Source: Leptolyngbya sp. KIOST-1 (GTDB lineage: Bacteria; Cyanobacteriota; Cyanobacteriia; Phormidesmidales; Phormidesmidaceae). From it: 64,000 bases of DNA. Below the pieces are notes generated by a model. It did no database searches and had not been told where the DNA came from. It saw only the letters and a list, made by a program, of their open reading frames with translations. The stretch is taken from positions 682,001 to 746,000 of the forward strand of contig NZ_JQFA01000002.1 of assembly GCF_000763385.1 (NCBI RefSeq). The letters are read 5' to 3'. The position numbers were made by a program, and so were the translations under genes. Positions 24,454 through 31,259 of this stretch are shown here, in pieces. Position 1 is the first letter of the stretch; each line of letters starts with the position of its first letter.

Positions 24454-27237
24454 CTACCCCCCCGCTTCCCCCCGCCGTCGGGCATGTTTCCCAAACAGGT
24501 GGGCGGGGGCCTCGCGGCGGGCGTAGCTAACCAGGTAGTCATGTACCAGCTGATAGCGATCGATGGGGATGTCGGGTAGCAAAAACACCAGGCCCGACCC
24601 CACCAGAATGTAAAGCACCAGGTCCATCTGGTCTTCCCGGTAGTCGGCCCCGCGCAGGTCGAGTTCTTCCTCCAGGTCTTCGCGGCTTTTTTGGGGGCGG
24701 TAGGGGCGGCCCTCGCGATCGATGTCGGTCAGCAGGTAGAGCACCAGTTGGGCCAGGCCAGCGTTTTCAGGGCCGCAGTCGTGGACGACGGTGCCCAGGA
24801 AGTTTTGCACCAGGGTTTCTTTGGGGTGGTTGCCCAGGGCTAGATAGGCGGCCAGGGTGGTGATTGCCTGGCGCTGGAGCTGCGCGCCCACCACCTGTAG
24901 CTCGATCGGGCGCACCTCACCAATGGCGTCGGCCAGGTCGGCCACCAGGCGATCGATCAGGGCGGTTTCGAGGTAGAAGTGGGCGTCGTCGGTGAGGCGA
25001 CGAATTAGAAACTTGGCGTCGGTGGCTCTGAAGTTGCCCAGGTAGTAGCGGTAGTCGCGACTGAGAATGTCGTTGTTGAGGATGTCGAGGTCAAAGCCGC
25101 GCTCAATTTCGAGCAAGTAGTGGAGATAGTCCTCCCGCAGGGCCAGCACCACCTTCAGATAGGGGGCATTGAGACAGTCAATTAAAAAGGCGTAAAAGTC
25201 TCGCCGCTGAAATAGCTCCCCGGCCTCGACAAAAAACTCCTCAAACTGGTCAAAAATCAGCACAATCTGGCGATAGCTACGCTCGGTGAGGGCTTTAAGG
25301 CGCGCGATCAAGTCATTGGGGCCGATGGGGGCAGCCGGGGGAATGCCGTCGCCATCGGCCTCGCTCTGCTGCTGTAGGGCGCGGGCCAGGGCCTGGTTGA
25401 CCTCGTCGGGCCAGTCGCGGTAGCCCCTGACCAGCACGGCTAGGGTCGATCGCCCCTCCGGGAACGATCGGTCGAGGGCGGGCATTAGTCCAGCGTAGAG
25501 AATGGAGCTTTTGCCCACCCCCGAAGGGCCATGGATGACAATCAGCGGATAGCGGGCCTGCTCCAGGCGGTAGGTGAGGGTTTCAACATCCACCAGGCGA
25601 CCGGAGGCCTGAATTTCGGTCGCCATTGTAGCCTGGGGCGATGGCGCTGGTATGGCCGGGGAGTAGGCCTGGGGCTGAATTTCGCCCGCTCCAATGAAGG
25701 CCCGCAGCCGAAACTGGGTATCGACCCGGCGCAGTTTAAGCGTGACGCCAAAGGCCGCCCGGTAGTCTTTTTGTTGGTAATACTGCTGTTGCAGAGTTTG
25801 CAGAATGCTGCGGTAGAGGGGCAGATCGCTGTTGGGATCGGTGTGGGTAGCGGCGTCTTCGAGCAGGGCGATCGCCCGCTGAGGCTCGTCCTGGGCTATG
25901 TGTACGCGCCCCAGCAGATAGAAGTACCAGCCCCGCTGGTACTGGTTGGCCACCGCCAGGTCGGTGTTGGCGGCTGTCAACGCCGAGGGCAACGTCGGGG
26001 TCAACGACTCGGGAATGACCTCGGACAGGGCGGCATCGCCGTGGACAGCCCCCGCGATCGCCAGAATTTGCAGGGCCCGCTCCGCCTGGGTTTGGGCGGT
26101 GGTGGCATCGCCCCGGGCCAGGGCCACCTCCGCCAGGTAGCCGTGGTTGCGGGCCAGGCGAATGGGGTCCTGGCGGTGCAGGGTCAGCCCCTCCTCGGCG
26201 GTGCGGGCCAGGGCGGCCCAGGCCCCCAGCTTTTGCTGCACCTCCGCCAGGGCATGGATAAACTTACCCACCAACTCCGACTGCTCCAGGTGGCGAAAAA
26301 TGCGCAGACAGGCCGAAAAGTGGCCCTCGGCCTTGTGCAGCATGCGATCGTACACGACCCGCTGCAGCACCGCCTGACTGCGGCAGGTCACCCCCAGGTA
26401 GAACAGCAGGACGGCCTGTTTTTGGCGGGGGGTGGGGGGTGAGGGGGTGAGGGGATGGGACGGTGGGGGGGCGTGGGTCGCTTTTTGCCAGTAGGTCAGG
26501 CTTTGCTCAAAGTGGTAGCGGGCCACGTCCAGGTCGCTGCGGCTCAAGGCGTCGCGGCCCTTGAGAAAGTCTAGGCTGGCCTTGAGTTCGCCGTCAAGGC
26601 TGGCCTGGGTTTGGGCAATATCGGCCAGGGCAAACTCCAGTTCGGTGCGCAGGGCCGACCCCTGGCTATAGTTGGAGGCCTCCCTGTGGTGGGGGCTGTC
26701 ATCCCCCAGGGCCAGCATGGTGGCAAACAGATCGTTGGCGTTGACGTGCAGGGAGTGAATCAGTTCCCCCGGCGGATACTCGAAGGGAATGGGGGCGGCG
26801 GCAAAGCTCTTGAAGTCGGGGGCGTGGCGGGTGAGGCTGGCCAGGGTGCGATCGCTGACCCACAGCACCACCGGAAAGGGCAGCGCCTGGGGAAAGGCGT
26901 TGCGGCCGAGGTTGGCCGCTTTAAACACGGCGGCCAGGTTTTGCACCTGGTCCAGCCCGGTCACCATCAGGGCAAAGGAGGGATTGCCCAGGGGCTCGGC
27001 GGTCAGCGCCTGCAGCAGGGTGACAATCTGCTCGGGCAGCGATCGCTCGACCACCGGGGCGACTGTGTACAGGTGGTCCACCACCAGTCGCCGCAGGCGC
27101 GAGTAGTTGCACCGCACCAGCACCAGCGAAAAGCGGTTGGGCCGCAGGGTGATAGCCCGCTGAAGCTCCGCCAGGGCAGCCTGGTTGTGGGCCAAAATCT
27201 CGGTGGGGCTGGCGCTGCCCGGGCTGGTGCTGCTCAC
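24454..27237 (-). CDS. TPR-containing STAND ATPase with an N-terminal degenerate NTPase-like region
   Basis: A 927-residue protein. Residues 1-160 resemble a P-loop-type domain that has lost its Walker A (RFSLVLVRCNYSRL, then FPVVLWVSD). Residues 200-510 are helical TPR-like repeats, broken at 254-272 by a Pro/Ser/Thr linker. Residues 530-750 form an nSTAND1-like ATPase with Walker A HGPSGVGKSS (569-578) and Walker B IVLIFDQFEEFF (658-669). A helical C-terminal region ends with a winged-helix-like QLVHDYLVSYAR. The start overlaps the upstream ATPase gene by four bases (ATGA). STAND proteins switch between monomer and oligomer and often serve in defence or signalling. No separate effector domain is obvious. 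Confidence 0.75.
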   Translation of the reverse strand: MSSTSPGSASPTEILAHNQAALAELQRAITLRPNRFSLVLVRCNYSRLRRLVVDHLYTVAPVVERSLPEQIVTLLQALTAEPLGNPSFALMVTGLDQVQNLAAVFKAANLGRNAFPQALPFPVVLWVSDRTLASLTRHAPDFKSFAAAPIPFEYPPGELIHSLHVNANDLFATMLALGDDSPHHREASNYSQGSALRTELEFALADIAQTQASLDGELKASLDFLKGRDALSRSDLDVARYHFEQSLTYWQKATHAPPPSHPLTPSPPTPRQKQAVLLFYLGVTCRSQAVLQRVVYDRMLHKAEGHFSACLRIFRHLEQSELVGKFIHALAEVQQKLGAWAALARTAEEGLTLHRQDPIRLARNHGYLAEVALARGDATTAQTQAERALQILAIAGAVHGDAALSEVIPESLTPTLPSALTAANTDLAVANQYQRGWYFYLLGRVHIAQDEPQRAIALLEDAATHTDPNSDLPLYRSILQTLQQQYYQQKDYRAAFGVTLKLRRVDTQFRLRAFIGAGEIQPQAYSPAIPAPSPQATMATEIQASGRLVDVETLTYRLEQARYPLIVIHGPSGVGKSSILYAGLMPALDRSFPEGRSTLAVLVRGYRDWPDEVNQALARALQQQSEADGDGIPPAAPIGPNDLIARLKALTERSYRQIVLIFDQFEEFFVEAGELFQRRDFYAFLIDCLNAPYLKVVLALREDYLHYLLEIERGFDLDILNNDILSRDYRYYLGNFRATDAKFLIRRLTDDAHFYLETALIDRLVADLADAIGEVRPIELQVVGAQLQRQAITTLAAYLALGNHPKETLVQNFLGTVVHDCGPENAGLAQLVLYLLTDIDREGRPYRPQKSREDLEEELDLRGADYREDQMDLVLYILVGSGLVFLLPDIPIDRYQLVHDYLVSYARREAPAHLFGKHARRRGEAGG

Positions 27238-28541
27238 GGCCGGGGTTGCTGGGCCTGCCAGCTGCGGTAGCGATCGGTTTCGGCCAGCAGCGGATTGAGG
27301 CCAAACCAGCGCCCCTGGTTGTCGCGGTACTCGTACAAAAACAGGCTGCGCACCAGAATGTTGTAGTCCTCATCGCCCTGCACATCCTGACGAGAGACCG
27401 CTTGCAGGAGCAGATCCCACTCCTGCTCGCTGACCAGGCCCATCAGGCTGTCGCGCTCGTTGCGAATCACCGCCTCCAGGGTGGCGCGCAAAAAGGGCGG
27501 GTCCTGCTTACGCAGGCAGCCATCCAGCAGCCGAATCAGGTTGCGCATGTGGCCGCCGCTGACCTGACAGAGGCGATCGAGGGTGGCCATTTCGTCGAAG
27601 ACCTCGCCCACCGCATCGATGCGCTGGTTCACATTGAGGTCGGGAAAGGCGCGAATCAGCACCATCTGCCGCAGCAGGGCCATGCCGGCATCGTCGGAAC
27701 TGCCGCTGCGATCGCGCACGGGCACCATGGGCAGCACCAGGGGATTGGTGCCAAACCGATTTGACAACCGCACCAGATCGTTGGAAAACATCAGCTCCAG
27801 CGGAATGGTGTAGACCAGGTGGCAGTCGAGCTGCCTCAGCTGCTCCCCGCGATCGACAAAAATGTACTCCGACTGCAGCCGCCCCTGGGACCGCAGGGTG
27901 CTGTCGATGCGATCGAGGTTGTCCATGATCACCACCAGACGGTTTTTACCCTGCTGCTGGAGGCGATCGTTGGCCGGAGTCAGCAGTTCGTCGTTAATGG
28001 CGGTAATGATGCTGCGGGTGCGCGGCTCCAGGTACTGGCGCAGCTGGCTGCGCATGTCGGGGCTCTGCTTGGCCGAGGCGGTAATGCTGGCAATGCCCGC
28101 CGAAAAACTCACGTCGGAAATCTCCATCGGCGTCCGCAGAGTGTTGGCCAGGTTCTGAAACAGACTTTGCAGGTAGGTGGGCCTGGTGACAATGCCAATC
28201 CGGTCGAGGTGTTCGCTAATGTTGTGGGCAATGCTGAGCAAAATGTCCGAAATTTCTACATCGGCCATCTCCAAATCGCGGTCTGACTCAAAGTAGACCA
28301 CCTCATAGCTGCGCTGGGCCAGCCGATCCTGCAGGCGAAACAGCTCCGTCGATTTGCCACAGCCAATGTGGCCGGTAAATAGCTGCGTGGTGGGTCGATT
28401 GCGGGCCAGACGGGCGATCTTGCGCTCCAGCTCCTGCACAATGTCGCCACCGCGCACGGTCGAAAAATCAATGTAGTAGCGCTTGCCCCGCAGCGGCTGG
28501 GTGGGGTCGCAGGCATCGTAAAACTGCTGTAGATCCAGCAT
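27234..28541 (-). CDS. P-loop (AAA-like) ATPase paired with the STAND protein
   Basis: A 435-residue ATPase. Walker A is TGHIGCGKST (56-65) and Walker B LVVIMDNLDRID (202-213). A sensor-like helical region follows, with GGHMRNLIRLLDG near 330. The C-terminal part (about 360-430) looks like a winged-helix domain. The overall pattern resembles AAA/Orc-like or KAP-like ATPases used as switch modules. It is translationally coupled to the downstream STAND gene, so the two probably form one complex. No Shine-Dalgarno is seen before the ATG. Confidence 0.75.
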   Translation of the reverse strand: MLDLQQFYDACDPTQPLRGKRYYIDFSTVRGGDIVQELERKIARLARNRPTTQLFTGHIGCGKSTELFRLQDRLAQRSYEVVYFESDRDLEMADVEISDILLSIAHNISEHLDRIGIVTRPTYLQSLFQNLANTLRTPMEISDVSFSAGIASITASAKQSPDMRSQLRQYLEPRTRSIITAINDELLTPANDRLQQQGKNRLVVIMDNLDRIDSTLRSQGRLQSEYIFVDRGEQLRQLDCHLVYTIPLELMFSNDLVRLSNRFGTNPLVLPMVPVRDRSGSSDDAGMALLRQMVLIRAFPDLNVNQRIDAVGEVFDEMATLDRLCQVSGGHMRNLIRLLDGCLRKQDPPFLRATLEAVIRNERDSLMGLVSEQEWDLLLQAVSRQDVQGDEDYNILVRSLFLYEYRDNQGRWFGLNPLLAETDRYRSWQAQQPRP

Positions 28542-28676
28542 GGGCTATTGGGCTATGGCCGTAGGGTTGCCTTCAGGGTATCGCACCGACGGCGCGGAGA
28601 AACCAACACCGAGGCCAGGATACGATTTCACAGCCCCCATCTTGCTAAATCGCTGACTTTGCCTAAGCCCCAAGCC

Positions 28677-29357
28677 TCAGGCAGCGGCCAACAGATTCAC
28701 TAAATCGGCTTTCTTCAGCTTGGAAAGCCCTTCAATATCGCGTTTTTTGGCCATCGCCTTAAGCTGTTGCGTGTTGAGTGATTCCAGTAGGGCGCGATCG
28801 GTTATGACCTCAGGCATCGGTTCTGGAGTTAGGTAAAAAAGCTGCTCCAGGGCTTTAAGCTTTTTGCCAGCGGTGATGCGACAGCCCAGCTTAGTGATCG
28901 GTTGTAAGTTTTTCCAGTATCGACGGGGGGCATCGTCTAACCGAGCTATCAGTGAGGCCTGATTTATGCCCTTAAGAGGACTGTCTATTTGGCTAGTTAG
29001 GTAGGCGATCGCCGCAGATATTTCCTCTCGACTAGCGGTAGAAAGGTTAGTTTTAGGTGGGATTTCTTGAGCCAAAGCCCTGGTAATGCTCACTGTCTCG
29101 GGCTTATCGTCAGCAATAACACACCAGACTTCGCTTAATCCAGCCTCAGCCGCGACGGCATAGATAAATGCATTGCCAATCACCTGGTACTGATCGGGGG
29201 CTATTTCTTTAACGACTAATGGAACCCAGTTACGGCCTTCTGACCCTAGCTGACTCGCCGCAAACTGAATCAAATACTCGTGGGCTTCAGTGGGTTCACC
29301 CGGTTCGATTTCATCAAAGGGCAAACACATTAAATTGCCAATGTCTGAGCGACTCAT
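28677..29357 (-). CDS. ParB/Srx-like domain protein with a C-terminal Rho_N/SAP-like domain
   Basis: A 226-residue protein. Residues 30-85 (NWVPLVVKEIAPDQYQVIGN, then an Ala-rich helix and SEVWCVIADD) follow the ParB/Srx N-terminal pattern: a basic site, a strand, a G-x-R-like turn, a helix and a strand. The turn has lost the usual Arg. Residues 188-224 (LNTQQLKAMAKKRDIEGLSKL, then KKADLVNLL) match the Rho termination factor N-terminal/SAP-type helical DNA- or RNA-binding domain. The start codon shares one base with the stop of the upstream ParA-like gene (TAATG). It probably acts as the partner of that ATPase. Confidence 0.7.
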   Translation of the reverse strand: MSRSDIGNLMCLPFDEIEPGEPTEAHEYLIQFAASQLGSEGRNWVPLVVKEIAPDQYQVIGNAFIYAVAAEAGLSEVWCVIADDKPETVSITRALAQEIPPKTNLSTASREEISAAIAYLTSQIDSPLKGINQASLIARLDDAPRRYWKNLQPITKLGCRITAGKKLKALEQLFYLTPEPMPEVITDRALLESLNTQQLKAMAKKRDIEGLSKLKKADLVNLLAAA

Positions 29358-30697
29358 TAGAGAAAATACTCCTTCACAAGGTTTAGATATTGCTCTCGAG
29401 CGGGCTTGAAAGCAAACGCCGCTGGCATATGCATAAAGTCAGCCCTAGATATATAGGCCATATAGGGAATAGTAATCATTCGCAGATCTTTGTGGCCTTT
29501 GCGGAACTTTGGGTAGAAGTAGGGTGTCAAATCAAACTTATTGGCATTAGCTTTGCCCTCTTTAATGATTTTGGCAACAGCTTGATGCATAAGTTGGAGT
29601 TGAGCATCAGACACTCTAAAAGCATTGTTCATGAATATGGGCAGTGCCGTTGGACCGGCATCTCCAAAACGTTGCCTTTCCGCTTGCATTTCAGGAATAA
29701 ACCGAGTGATGGCCATCCCCGCATTTTGGAGAGAATGCAAGTTATCGTGCCTGGCAGGTATTAAAACAACATCTGCGGCATATATAGCTTTCTGAGCAAA
29801 CACTCGCCAGTTAGGTGGCGCATCAATAAGAACATAATCATATTTACTTTGAACAGATTCTAATGCTCGGCGCAAAGCATGAAGCTTGACCTGCTGTTTT
29901 AATTTTGCTTCGTCTACGTCGCCAATTAAGTCCTCGTCTGCCAAAATTATGTCAAAGCCCAAAGGCTCCGTAAGTTTTGGGTGCTCAAACTTATAGGGAG
30001 TTATAATGTCTCCAATATTAGATTCTTTATTTTTAAGAATATCTAGAACTTTGCCTTTCAATGGTCGCAGATTAAGGGCATCGCCTAAATCGCTTTGATT
30101 TGGATCAAAATCAACAATAAGCACTCGCTTTTTGAGTAAAGCCAGTGTAGCTGCCAAATTCAAAGTTGTGGTAGTTTTGCCAACGCCACCTTTGTTGTTA
30201 TAAACCGCTATCGTTAATGCTCGGCTAGGAGTTTCCAAACGTTGTTTGAGATCTTTAACTATACGTTTAACGTCCCCATCTAGGGGCAGACATGGTGTTA
30301 CAGGGTGTACCACCTTACCGTGCTTTCGGAATAACTGCACGTGAAGTGAATTAGTTAATAATCCCCACTTAACAGATTTGGAGGCTGAATCTAGTAAATA
30401 ATGCTTAAGTTGTAGGGCTGCTCGGCAATAATTGGGATGGGACTGGTCCCCTAAATTTTCCGATCTTCCCTTAACCTCCATATAGAGATGAGGGCTCCTA
30501 AGGCTTTCCAGAAAAATGTCTTCGCCTGTATTTTTGCGAACAGCGTGGTCAACAGCACGATTCCCGACCGGGAATTGAGGAACCATTTCTAAGTCCTCAA
30601 ACCCCAATGCCTTAAGAAATGGCTGAGAAAACTTGAGTTCTACAATCGCCTCAGAGGCATCAGTAGGAAGGAACTGTAGCGTTTGCTCTAGGCTCAT
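29357..30697 (-). CDS. HsdR_N-like nuclease domain fused to a ParA-type ATPase
   Basis: A 446-residue fusion. Residues 15-150 resemble the restriction-endonuclease-like domain of type I HsdR N-termini: Asp50 in NRAVDHAV, the ExK pair Glu74-Val-Lys76 in YMEVKG, and the typical strand WGLLTNSLHVQLFR. Residues 160-446 form a ParA/MinD ATPase with the deviant Walker A NNKGGVGKTTT (167-177), DFDPNQSDLG as switch I and VLIDAPP as Walker B. ParA proteins normally lack a nuclease domain. The gene is AT-richer than most of the window. It may be a defence or selfish maintenance module rather than chromosome partition. Confidence 0.75.
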   Translation of the reverse strand: MSLEQTLQFLPTDASEAIVELKFSQPFLKALGFEDLEMVPQFPVGNRAVDHAVRKNTGEDIFLESLRSPHLYMEVKGRSENLGDQSHPNYCRAALQLKHYLLDSASKSVKWGLLTNSLHVQLFRKHGKVVHPVTPCLPLDGDVKRIVKDLKQRLETPSRALTIAVYNNKGGVGKTTTTLNLAATLALLKKRVLIVDFDPNQSDLGDALNLRPLKGKVLDILKNKESNIGDIITPYKFEHPKLTEPLGFDIILADEDLIGDVDEAKLKQQVKLHALRRALESVQSKYDYVLIDAPPNWRVFAQKAIYAADVVLIPARHDNLHSLQNAGMAITRFIPEMQAERQRFGDAGPTALPIFMNNAFRVSDAQLQLMHQAVAKIIKEGKANANKFDLTPYFYPKFRKGHKDLRMITIPYMAYISRADFMHMPAAFAFKPAREQYLNLVKEYFL

Positions 30698-31037
30698 GGG
30701 CTTTCTGAGTGGCTTTACTCTAGTCGTACTGAAGAGGCTTAGCTACAACCGTATAGTTTGGATGGAATTCATGGAAGTTTCATATCCATGCAAAGAACCC
30801 TTACCCTCTCATTAAGGGCGAGGGTTCTCTACTACATCCGTGTATTGCTAGGGCATCCTAGTTGAGTGTGGTCAGCTAAGGCAGCTATCCCACATCATTA
30901 AATGCTTGATTCTAAACGGGTGCCAACTTCACTGACTTAACGTACCCAGAAAGTGAAAATTTCTATCACATCGGTAATCCCACTTCAATAGCCCAGTGCG
31001 ATAAGATGAGCCAGGTCAGTTACTCCCTACCAACGTC
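30698..31037. other. Intergenic region, AT-richer
   Basis: About 340 bases between divergent genes. No supported gene, hairpin or repeat is evident. It must contain the promoter of the ParA-like operon. Confidence 0.4.
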
Positions 31038-31259
31038 ATGTCTATTTCCAAAACCGAGGCCAAGCAGCTGCTGGAGCGGATGATCTTTGACGCCACCGAC
31101 CCGCAGGATTGGGTGCAGGACGTGTGGGGATTGAGCCCCCTGATGGGCGACAGCGCCGCCAAGCTCCTAGAAGCGTTCTATATTCTGATTGACTGCTGCC
31201 CCGACGAGCAGCTTGACAACCTGATCAAGGGGCTTTACCGCGACCAGCTAGAGTTTTAG
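31038..31259 (+). CDS. Small conserved-looking hypothetical protein
   Basis: A 73-residue acidic, helical protein (MSISKTEAKQLLERMIFDAT; tail LIKGLYRDQLEF). Codon use is GC-rich like the host genome, unlike its AT-rich neighbours on both sides, which argues it is native. No Shine-Dalgarno is clear. It ends eight bases before the stop of the convergent glycosyltransferase gene. Function unknown. Confidence 0.55.
   Translation: MSISKTEAKQLLERMIFDATDPQDWVQDVWGLSPLMGDSAAKLLEAFYILIDCCPDEQLDNLIKGLYRDQLEF

Follow-up and report, generated by a model that had tools for sequence, protein, structure and literature searches.

A nuclease–ParA fusion paired with a ParB-like protein in cyanobacteria: a possible conflict module derived from a partition system

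Why should a ParA ATPase carry a nuclease at its N-terminus? The question is raised by a locus of Leptolyngbya sp. KIOST-1 within a stretch of 64,000 nucleotides (contig NZ_JQFA01000002.1, positions 682,001 to 746,000), which is called the window here and whose own numbering is used below unless another locus is named. One gene in it, gene A, joins a predicted nuclease domain to a ParA ATPase, and a first-pass annotation made from the sequence had taken its product for a system of one gene. What is conserved in cyanobacteria is a two-gene operon, in which A is followed by a gene for a ParB-like protein, gene B, and at several shared sites A has been exchanged for unlike alleles beside a constant B. 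We speculate that the pair is a conflict module, derived from a partition system, which cuts competing or invading DNA; this reading is held tentatively, at a little short of an even chance. If it is true, segregation machinery has been turned into a device for telling self from non-self, linking plasmid incompatibility with restriction, and because alleles have been replaced at fixed places in the chromosome while the partner stayed unchanged, the question is open to direct test.

Domain make-up of the two proteins

The module in the window consists of the following features.

29357..30697, minus strand: gene A, the nuclease–ParA fusion, 446 amino acids (open reading frame, Pfam match, AlphaFold2 model, alignment of 112 distinct full-length proteins).
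30224..30697, minus strand: probable PD-(D/E)XK (HsdR_N-like) domain of A, residues 1-158, with E16, D50, E74, K76, Q96 and Y100 (HSDR_N_2 matches in family members, residue counts, secondary structure).
29357..30223, minus strand: ParA/Soj ATPase domain of A, residues 159-446, with a deviant Walker A motif at 167-177 that includes K169 and K174 (Pfam, fold searches, alignment).
28677..29357, minus strand: gene B, the ParB-like partner, 226 amino acids, overlapping A by 1 nucleotide, with a ParB/Srx-type N-terminal fold and a Rho_N/SAP-like C-terminus (open reading frame, Pfam, Foldseek, gene order).

The first-pass annotation had the coordinates of gene A exactly right and overlooked both its strand and the overlapping partner gene: the open reading frame runs on the minus strand, and a plus-strand reading of 29357-30697 is full of stops. 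The architecture that it claimed, an HsdR_N-type nuclease joined to a full ParA, is borne out by the residues, their conservation, the model and the profile and fold matches. Residues 159-446 are a complete ParA ATPase domain, which matches Pfam AAA_31 with 114.5 bits (cut-off 27) and finds Soj and ParA proteins as the closest solved structures (Helicobacter Soj, Z 28.4 over 253 residues, with a root-mean-square deviation, rmsd, of 2.9). The Walker A motif reads NNKGGVGKTTT at residues 167-177, and both K169 and K174 are kept in 112/112 proteins of the conservation alignment, which includes the window's own and in which the others are mostly 24-88% identical to it. The NCBIfam equivalog ParA_partition is not reached by gene A (81.7 bits against a cut-off of 180).

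The predicted structure suggests that residues 1-158 are probably a PD-(D/E)XK-like core of the HsdR/RecB type with a conserved active site. In the AlphaFold2 model of the full protein (predicted local distance difference test, pLDDT, 92.9; predicted template-modelling score, pTM, 0.92), residues 1-155 form a helix (16-30), three strands (38-44, 47-53 and 71-75), a second helix (88-101) and further strands at 111-132; D50 belongs to the second strand, the third has E74 at its end, and Q96 and Y100 lie in the helix 88-101. The PD-(D/E)XK topology places its active-site residues where this model has E16, D50, E74/K76 and Q96. D50 and E74-V-K76 are present in the window protein, and across the 112 proteins E16 and E74 are kept in all, K76 in 111, D50 in 110, Q96 in 107 and the whole Q96xxxY100 in 95, so that the conservation of the predicted active-site residues is far beyond chance. 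A QxxxY motif is described for HsdR and RecB nucleases in the available part of PMC4454674.

Structure prediction, the check that the first-pass annotation had proposed for the N-terminal part, thus yields a core of the PD-(D/E)XK-like kind whose active site is conserved. Among 32 family members, 27 match Pfam HSDR_N_2 (PF13588) at E<=1, the best at 1.1e-7, and 15 match HSDR_N at the same threshold; the window's nuclease domain searched by itself matches no Pfam family, and three proteins of a second class (class II, described below) score 21.5-23.2 bits against HSDR_N_2, where the cut-off is 25. The fold searches used the full protein, and ParA-type chains took up their listings; that no nuclease structure appears there is therefore uninformative. 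An excisionase, the sole and weak match (E 0.29) of the nuclease alignment in a PDB sequence profile search, was not used.

For gene B, the predicted N-terminal fold points to the ParB family. Its model (pLDDT 91.9) matches Noc, ParB, KorB, PadC and sulfiredoxin in Foldseek; because template-modelling scores (TM-scores) by query length are 0.25-0.38 among the first 50 matches listed and rmsd is often above 10 across multi-domain alignments, this support is limited to the N-terminal fold; scored by its own length, one sulfiredoxin attains 0.67 across 89 columns. The match to ParB_N is below threshold (13.2 bits against 26.3), no helix-turn-helix family appears for B in the Pfam scan, and the C-terminus matches Rho_N with 27.8 bits (cut-off 24.9). 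ParB proteins bind CTP through a GERR motif. The corresponding position in B reads G-N-(S/H)-F, the commonest residues at 62-64 being N, S/H and F, and there is no arginine among the residues listed at these three positions (32, 30 and 31 of 32 rows listed). Boxes of the ParB CTP-binding motif are named in the available part of PMC12704722. No family of parS-like repeats with at least three copies of at least 10 nucleotides was found in the two window stretches searched, and the aligned upstream DNA of nine relatives contains no common site, the sequences being too diverged to reveal one.

Distribution, neighbours and empty sites

The protein in the window does not stand alone. In 128 loci and the window, a set which like that of 122 modules counts some genomes twice (ten pairs at 100%), 127 open reading frames with the nuclease domain were found, and 109 of them pass an automatic pairing rule that asks for a ParA motif and for B within -60 to +400 bases downstream of A. 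The two reading frames overlap in 84 of the 109 pairs, in 60 of them by 4 bases. Among the 18 loci that fail the rule, eight lie at most 700 bases from a sequence end, in five (L096, L127, L145, L151, L165) B follows an A that is broken, variant or separated, and in five A has no neighbouring B. No neighbour besides B keeps a fixed position across the loci, except in small groups.

Some single loci deserve mention here. In L057, L059 and L060 gene A lies beside the same gene, by eye one for a ribosomal protein; in these and in L054, which belong to one family and carry A alone, B may be dispensable or replaced, and a search for gene B in these four genomes gave one weak match (E 2.3e-7) in one of them. 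An orphan B fragment at 4505-4984 of L297, in a genome (G030) without class I A, is likely a relic, and at 8968-9718 of L069 an apparent internal loss in a class I copy leaves the nuclease domain, the start of the P-loop and the tail of B.

Presence is patchy. Gene A was found in 46 of 386 cyanobacterial genomes and in 36 of 143 genera, the 46 including one class II copy at the same place (G087) and one genome with broken fragments only (G385); the B profile by itself, which also picks up class II partners, finds matches in 97 of the 386 at E<=0.001. Among 84,980 species genomes of bacteria and archaea, a scan gave 114 relatives, of which the 80 listed loci are all cyanobacterial by title; as the scan used one peptide pattern and 34 relatives lie outside that list, it does not show absence outside cyanobacteria. 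The nuclease domain has its best named matches in Nodosilinea and other filamentous cyanobacteria, at 75% and below. The source genome (6.3 Mb) has one full-length gene A, and its seven further matches are ParA-type stretches only. Elsewhere in that genome (L296, G000:C2:2960500-2967500), a nuclease-less ParA of 285 amino acids is followed by a ParB-like gene and a convergent GmrSD restriction-type gene, and an upstream reading frame looks PIN-like when inspected by eye. This makes the locus a cousin of the module that lacks the nuclease and has conflict-type surroundings.

A phage origin was considered and rejected, as by these searches this is not mainly a phage family: 1 of 50,697 phage records matched, through the ParA part alone, 2.9 million IMG/VR contigs gave one relative, with A and B, and the best match in a viral fold library is a 456-residue phage ParA at a TM-score of 0.42. 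This contig of the viral collection (L168, 58 kb) carries A and B among neighbours some of which are, by eye, HTH (helix-turn-helix)-antitoxin and ImmA-type; it may be a virus or a plasmid.

The site that the module occupies in the window is empty in two genomes of the same genus, and comparison with them gives three further features.

28589..30990, no strand, approximate: stretch that two genomes of the same genus lack at this site (blastn of the L228 and L229 empty sites against the window; borders 28588-28593 and 30990-30998).
27234..28541, minus strand: nSTAND-type NTPase gene at the left border of the site, outside the module (Pfam match below cut-off; flank comparison).
31038..31259, plus strand: small flanking gene at the right border of the site, outside the module (flank comparison).

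Genomes G407 and G408 have both flanking genes, whose proteins are 94-99% identical and which lie just some 290 and 160 bases apart; both genomes carry A-B at other places. Either G407 and G408 lost the module or the window gained it, and no target-site duplication is apparent in the empty-site alignments, which were not accompanied by a dedicated search. In the family of 63 genomes, A is present in 23 and the nSTAND-like gene in 53; this gene is the first of two adjacent STAND-type NTPase genes (24454-28541; nSTAND5-like, below cut-off, and nSTAND1 with TPR) that adjoin the module.

Allele replacement

The evolution of the module was followed at sites that different genomes share. At the one shared by G416 and G417, synonymous divergence (dS) is 0.12-0.22 in the flanking genes and 0.26 in B, where nonsynonymous divergence (dN) is 0.004; in A, the proportion of synonymous differences (pS) is 0.72-0.75, and dN is 0.29 in the nuclease half and 0.17 in the ParA half. 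DNA identity in steps of 100 columns is 58-78% within A and 87-100% outside it, the partner B included, and it breaks at the start codon of A and at the A/B junction. The A of G417 is nearer to that of L094 (84/93%) than to that of its sister G416 (57/73%). That synonymous differences in A are saturated while the flanks are nearly identical implies allele replacement and not mere relaxed constraint. In class I, to which these loci belong, A is exchanged as a whole and B stays constant.

Across 86 locus pairs that share two or more flanking genes and have a flank median of 85-99.5%, which are not independent of each other, the nuclease half is less alike than the flanks in 83, the ParA half also in 83, and B in 43; compared with B, the nuclease half is less alike in 81 and the ParA half in 80. 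The genus of G095 is taken as Microcystis, on the evidence that the flanks of L155 (Microcystis wesenbergii) are 98% alike. The module is present in 10 of its 12 genomes, in one with an internal stop, and parsimony counts in this group give a dN/dS of 0.54 for A (119 silent and 229 replacement changes) against 0.15 for B (42 and 22; Fisher p 5e-6). For the ParA half of L079/L084 pS is 0.07 and its nonsynonymous counterpart, pN, 0.061, on few changes.

The B profile also led to the diverged class II, in which a nuclease–ParA protein of 449-458 amino acids is paired with a ParB-like protein, as checked in ten loci (L066, L298, L299 and L312-L318). The one class II A that was aligned (L066) is 27-28% identical to that of the window, and ParB_N reaches 35.4 bits in one partner and 26.1 in another (cut-off 26.3). 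The class II nuclease domain occurs in 71 of the 386 genomes at E<=0.001 and in 47 at E<1e-30, a few of the weakest matches being class I places; 16 genomes have both classes, G087 set aside. In four Microcystis pairs with unlike class II alleles, the nuclease half is 95-97% and the upstream flank 96-97% alike, the ParA half 81-89%, the N-terminal part of B 62-66% and the rest of B 69-84%. Counts for this class give a dN/dS of 0.23 for A and 0.42 for B. The part exchanged in class II is thus the putative targeting part, that is the ParA half and the ParB-like gene, and the putative cutter stays constant. In L298 and L299 the class II pair adjoins a second, divergent ParA-like gene of about 300 amino acids.

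Possible roles and known systems

We favour a conflict device over a partition or compatibility system and over two less probable readings of equal standing, a selfish module and a housekeeping accessory. The module may have originated as a ParA/ParB-type positioning pair that was armed with a nuclease. A would dimerise with ATP and coat DNA as ParA does; B, with its ParB fold and SAP-like tail, would meet A on particular DNA and switch its ATPase cycle, and at this meeting point the PD-(D/E)XK domain of A would cut. The target would be competing or incoming DNA, such as plasmids, phages or rival replicons, and the variable alleles would determine the DNA under attack or the inhibitor that is evaded. 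The ATP-dependent coating of DNA, the contact with B or regulation by it, and the cleavage are what knowledge of the families leads one to expect, and we infer the conflict role and its target from evolution: patchy presence, empty sites, allele replacement and divergent plasmid modules fit, indirectly, the defence or selfish maintenance that the first-pass annotation had suggested. In a variant that seems improbable to us, the nuclease–ParA would be a decoy which hooks the partition complexes of incoming or competing plasmids, via its own ParB or theirs, and cuts; the diversity of ParA/ParB alleles would then track partition types.

Several observations weigh against a conflict module. The link to defence islands expected by the first-pass annotation was not found: comparison of 20 loci with 20 regions about 180-210 kb off on the same contigs gave 32 PADLOC families among 139 neighbour proteins and 100 among 139 controls, hence no defence enrichment (E<=1e-10; families counted, not proteins; 140 proteins chosen per set, one reading frame above 2,200 amino acids omitted from each; genes taken roughly, as the longest reading frame; 25 families listed for each set). 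Among the PADLOC families listed, those of the controls include type I-D CRISPR genes; the listed neighbours contain two proteins with a match to a type IV (Mrr) model, as well as a methyltransferase and restriction enzyme of type II. The 25 Pfam families listed per set are mostly of ordinary cell functions. PADLOC (2023) itself matches A in the P-loop region only (PDC-M28B, mad8) and B not at all. The five loci with A and no adjoining B (L054, L057, L059, L060, L073) include four from one family of 2.5-3.3 Mb genomes. In none of the nine class II pairs is the downstream flank conserved (46-74% alike), and the exchanged block may therefore extend beyond B; A is more alike than B in L142/L159, L133/L137 and L161/L144, and in L138/L156 the two are about equal. 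In the Microcystis group an excess of amino-acid changes reaches significance in no 20-codon window (smallest P 0.088), so that the data support allele replacement and give no support for positive selection. Finally, allele replacement also fits partition specificity or hitch-hiking.

Partition is indeed the rival that survives best, and we consider it rather unlikely. A and B would position a plasmid or an integrated ex-plasmid, the nuclease fold would serve DNA binding, the resolution of tangled copies or autoregulation, and divergent alleles would stop related replicons from interfering with each other. The ParA and ParB-like folds speak for it, as do copies on cyanobacterial plasmids: two in Nostoc sp. 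UHCC 0870 (44-45%) and two diverged ones in Pseudanabaena (24-25%), all four at a coverage of at least 80%, one diverged copy being on a 12.6-kb plasmid without another annotated partition gene. Over the stretches compared, the two Nostoc plasmids have eight flanking genes in common with a median of 96%, but between their modules the likeness is 52/53% for A and 59% for B. Incompatibility or mutual exclusion would require just this, sister plasmids of one strain with divergent modules. However, both of these plasmids already carry ParM/StbA genes, B has neither a Pfam helix-turn-helix family nor the GERR arginines, and the nuclease site is intact in nearly all proteins. Partition specificity should reside in ParB and the centromere, yet in class I it is the ParB-like gene that is conserved. 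In 22 of the 46 genomes, moreover, a copy lies on a contig of 1.7-6.8 Mb (many others are on short contigs, which may belong to chromosome or plasmid), and no plasmid gene occurs among the 25 listed of 158 neighbour Pfam families. The first-pass annotation had named homologues always at partition loci as evidence against itself; many lie on chromosome-size contigs and not at known partition loci.

A selfish toxin-like or drive module, whose nuclease punishes loss or copies itself into alleles that lack it as restriction and homing genes do, is less probable still. Empty beside filled sites, differing sites within a genus and a replacement bounded by the A gene would suit it, as would the broken nuclease–ParA with intact B in L127, L145, L165 and L257. 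The survival of A in five loci without a neighbouring B implies that B is not an obligatory antitoxin, no modification gene adjoins the module in the window, and the empty-site alignments, as said above, offer no apparent target-site duplication. A chromosomal accessory for DNA repair or segregation in polyploid cyanobacteria, with variability reflecting weak constraint, is similarly improbable: the retention in the Microcystis-like genus and a dN/dS below 1 speak for it, and the patchy presence, the allele replacement in A beside near-identical flanks and the retained catalytic residues against it.

Returning to the conflict module that we favour, its parts are of known kinds and their combination appears undescribed in the searchable literature: no ParA-nuclease fusion is described in the titles and abstract starts searched, a coverage outside which many subscription papers and preprints lie. 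A 2020 survey of conflict systems mentions, in its available part, MinD/ParA-like domains, predicted to be inactive, among the effectors of other systems (PMC7159879). With the N-terminal nuclease of type I HsdR (HSDR_N/HSDR_N_2, RecB-like), gene A shares the order of E, D, ExK and QxxxY, the predicted core topology and, in most members scanned, the Pfam profile; it differs in that its nuclease is joined to a ParA ATPase and that of HsdR to an SF2 motor, and the window protein lies below profile detection. ParA/Soj and McdA have the same full ParA fold and deviant Walker A motif, and they differ from A in its N-terminal nuclease domain and in a partner that lacks a match to the ParB helix-turn-helix family. 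The predicted N-terminal fold of B is that of the ParB-CTPase proteins ParB, Noc and PadC, from which it differs in the replaced GERR arginines and in its Rho_N/SAP-like tail; a term search of the main text of the 2025 survey of the ParB-CTPase fold (PMC12704722), as far as available, gives no word beginning with Rho. The PADLOC candidate PDC-M28B seems, from the position of the match, to have a similar ParA-type P-loop after an N-terminal extension, and the match of gene A to it is confined to about 44-111 residues around the P-loop. A precedent for partition parts that expel a rival plasmid is SGI1, which according to the available part of PMC10954446 hijacks the parABS system of IncC plasmids by means of parS-like sites and a small protein.

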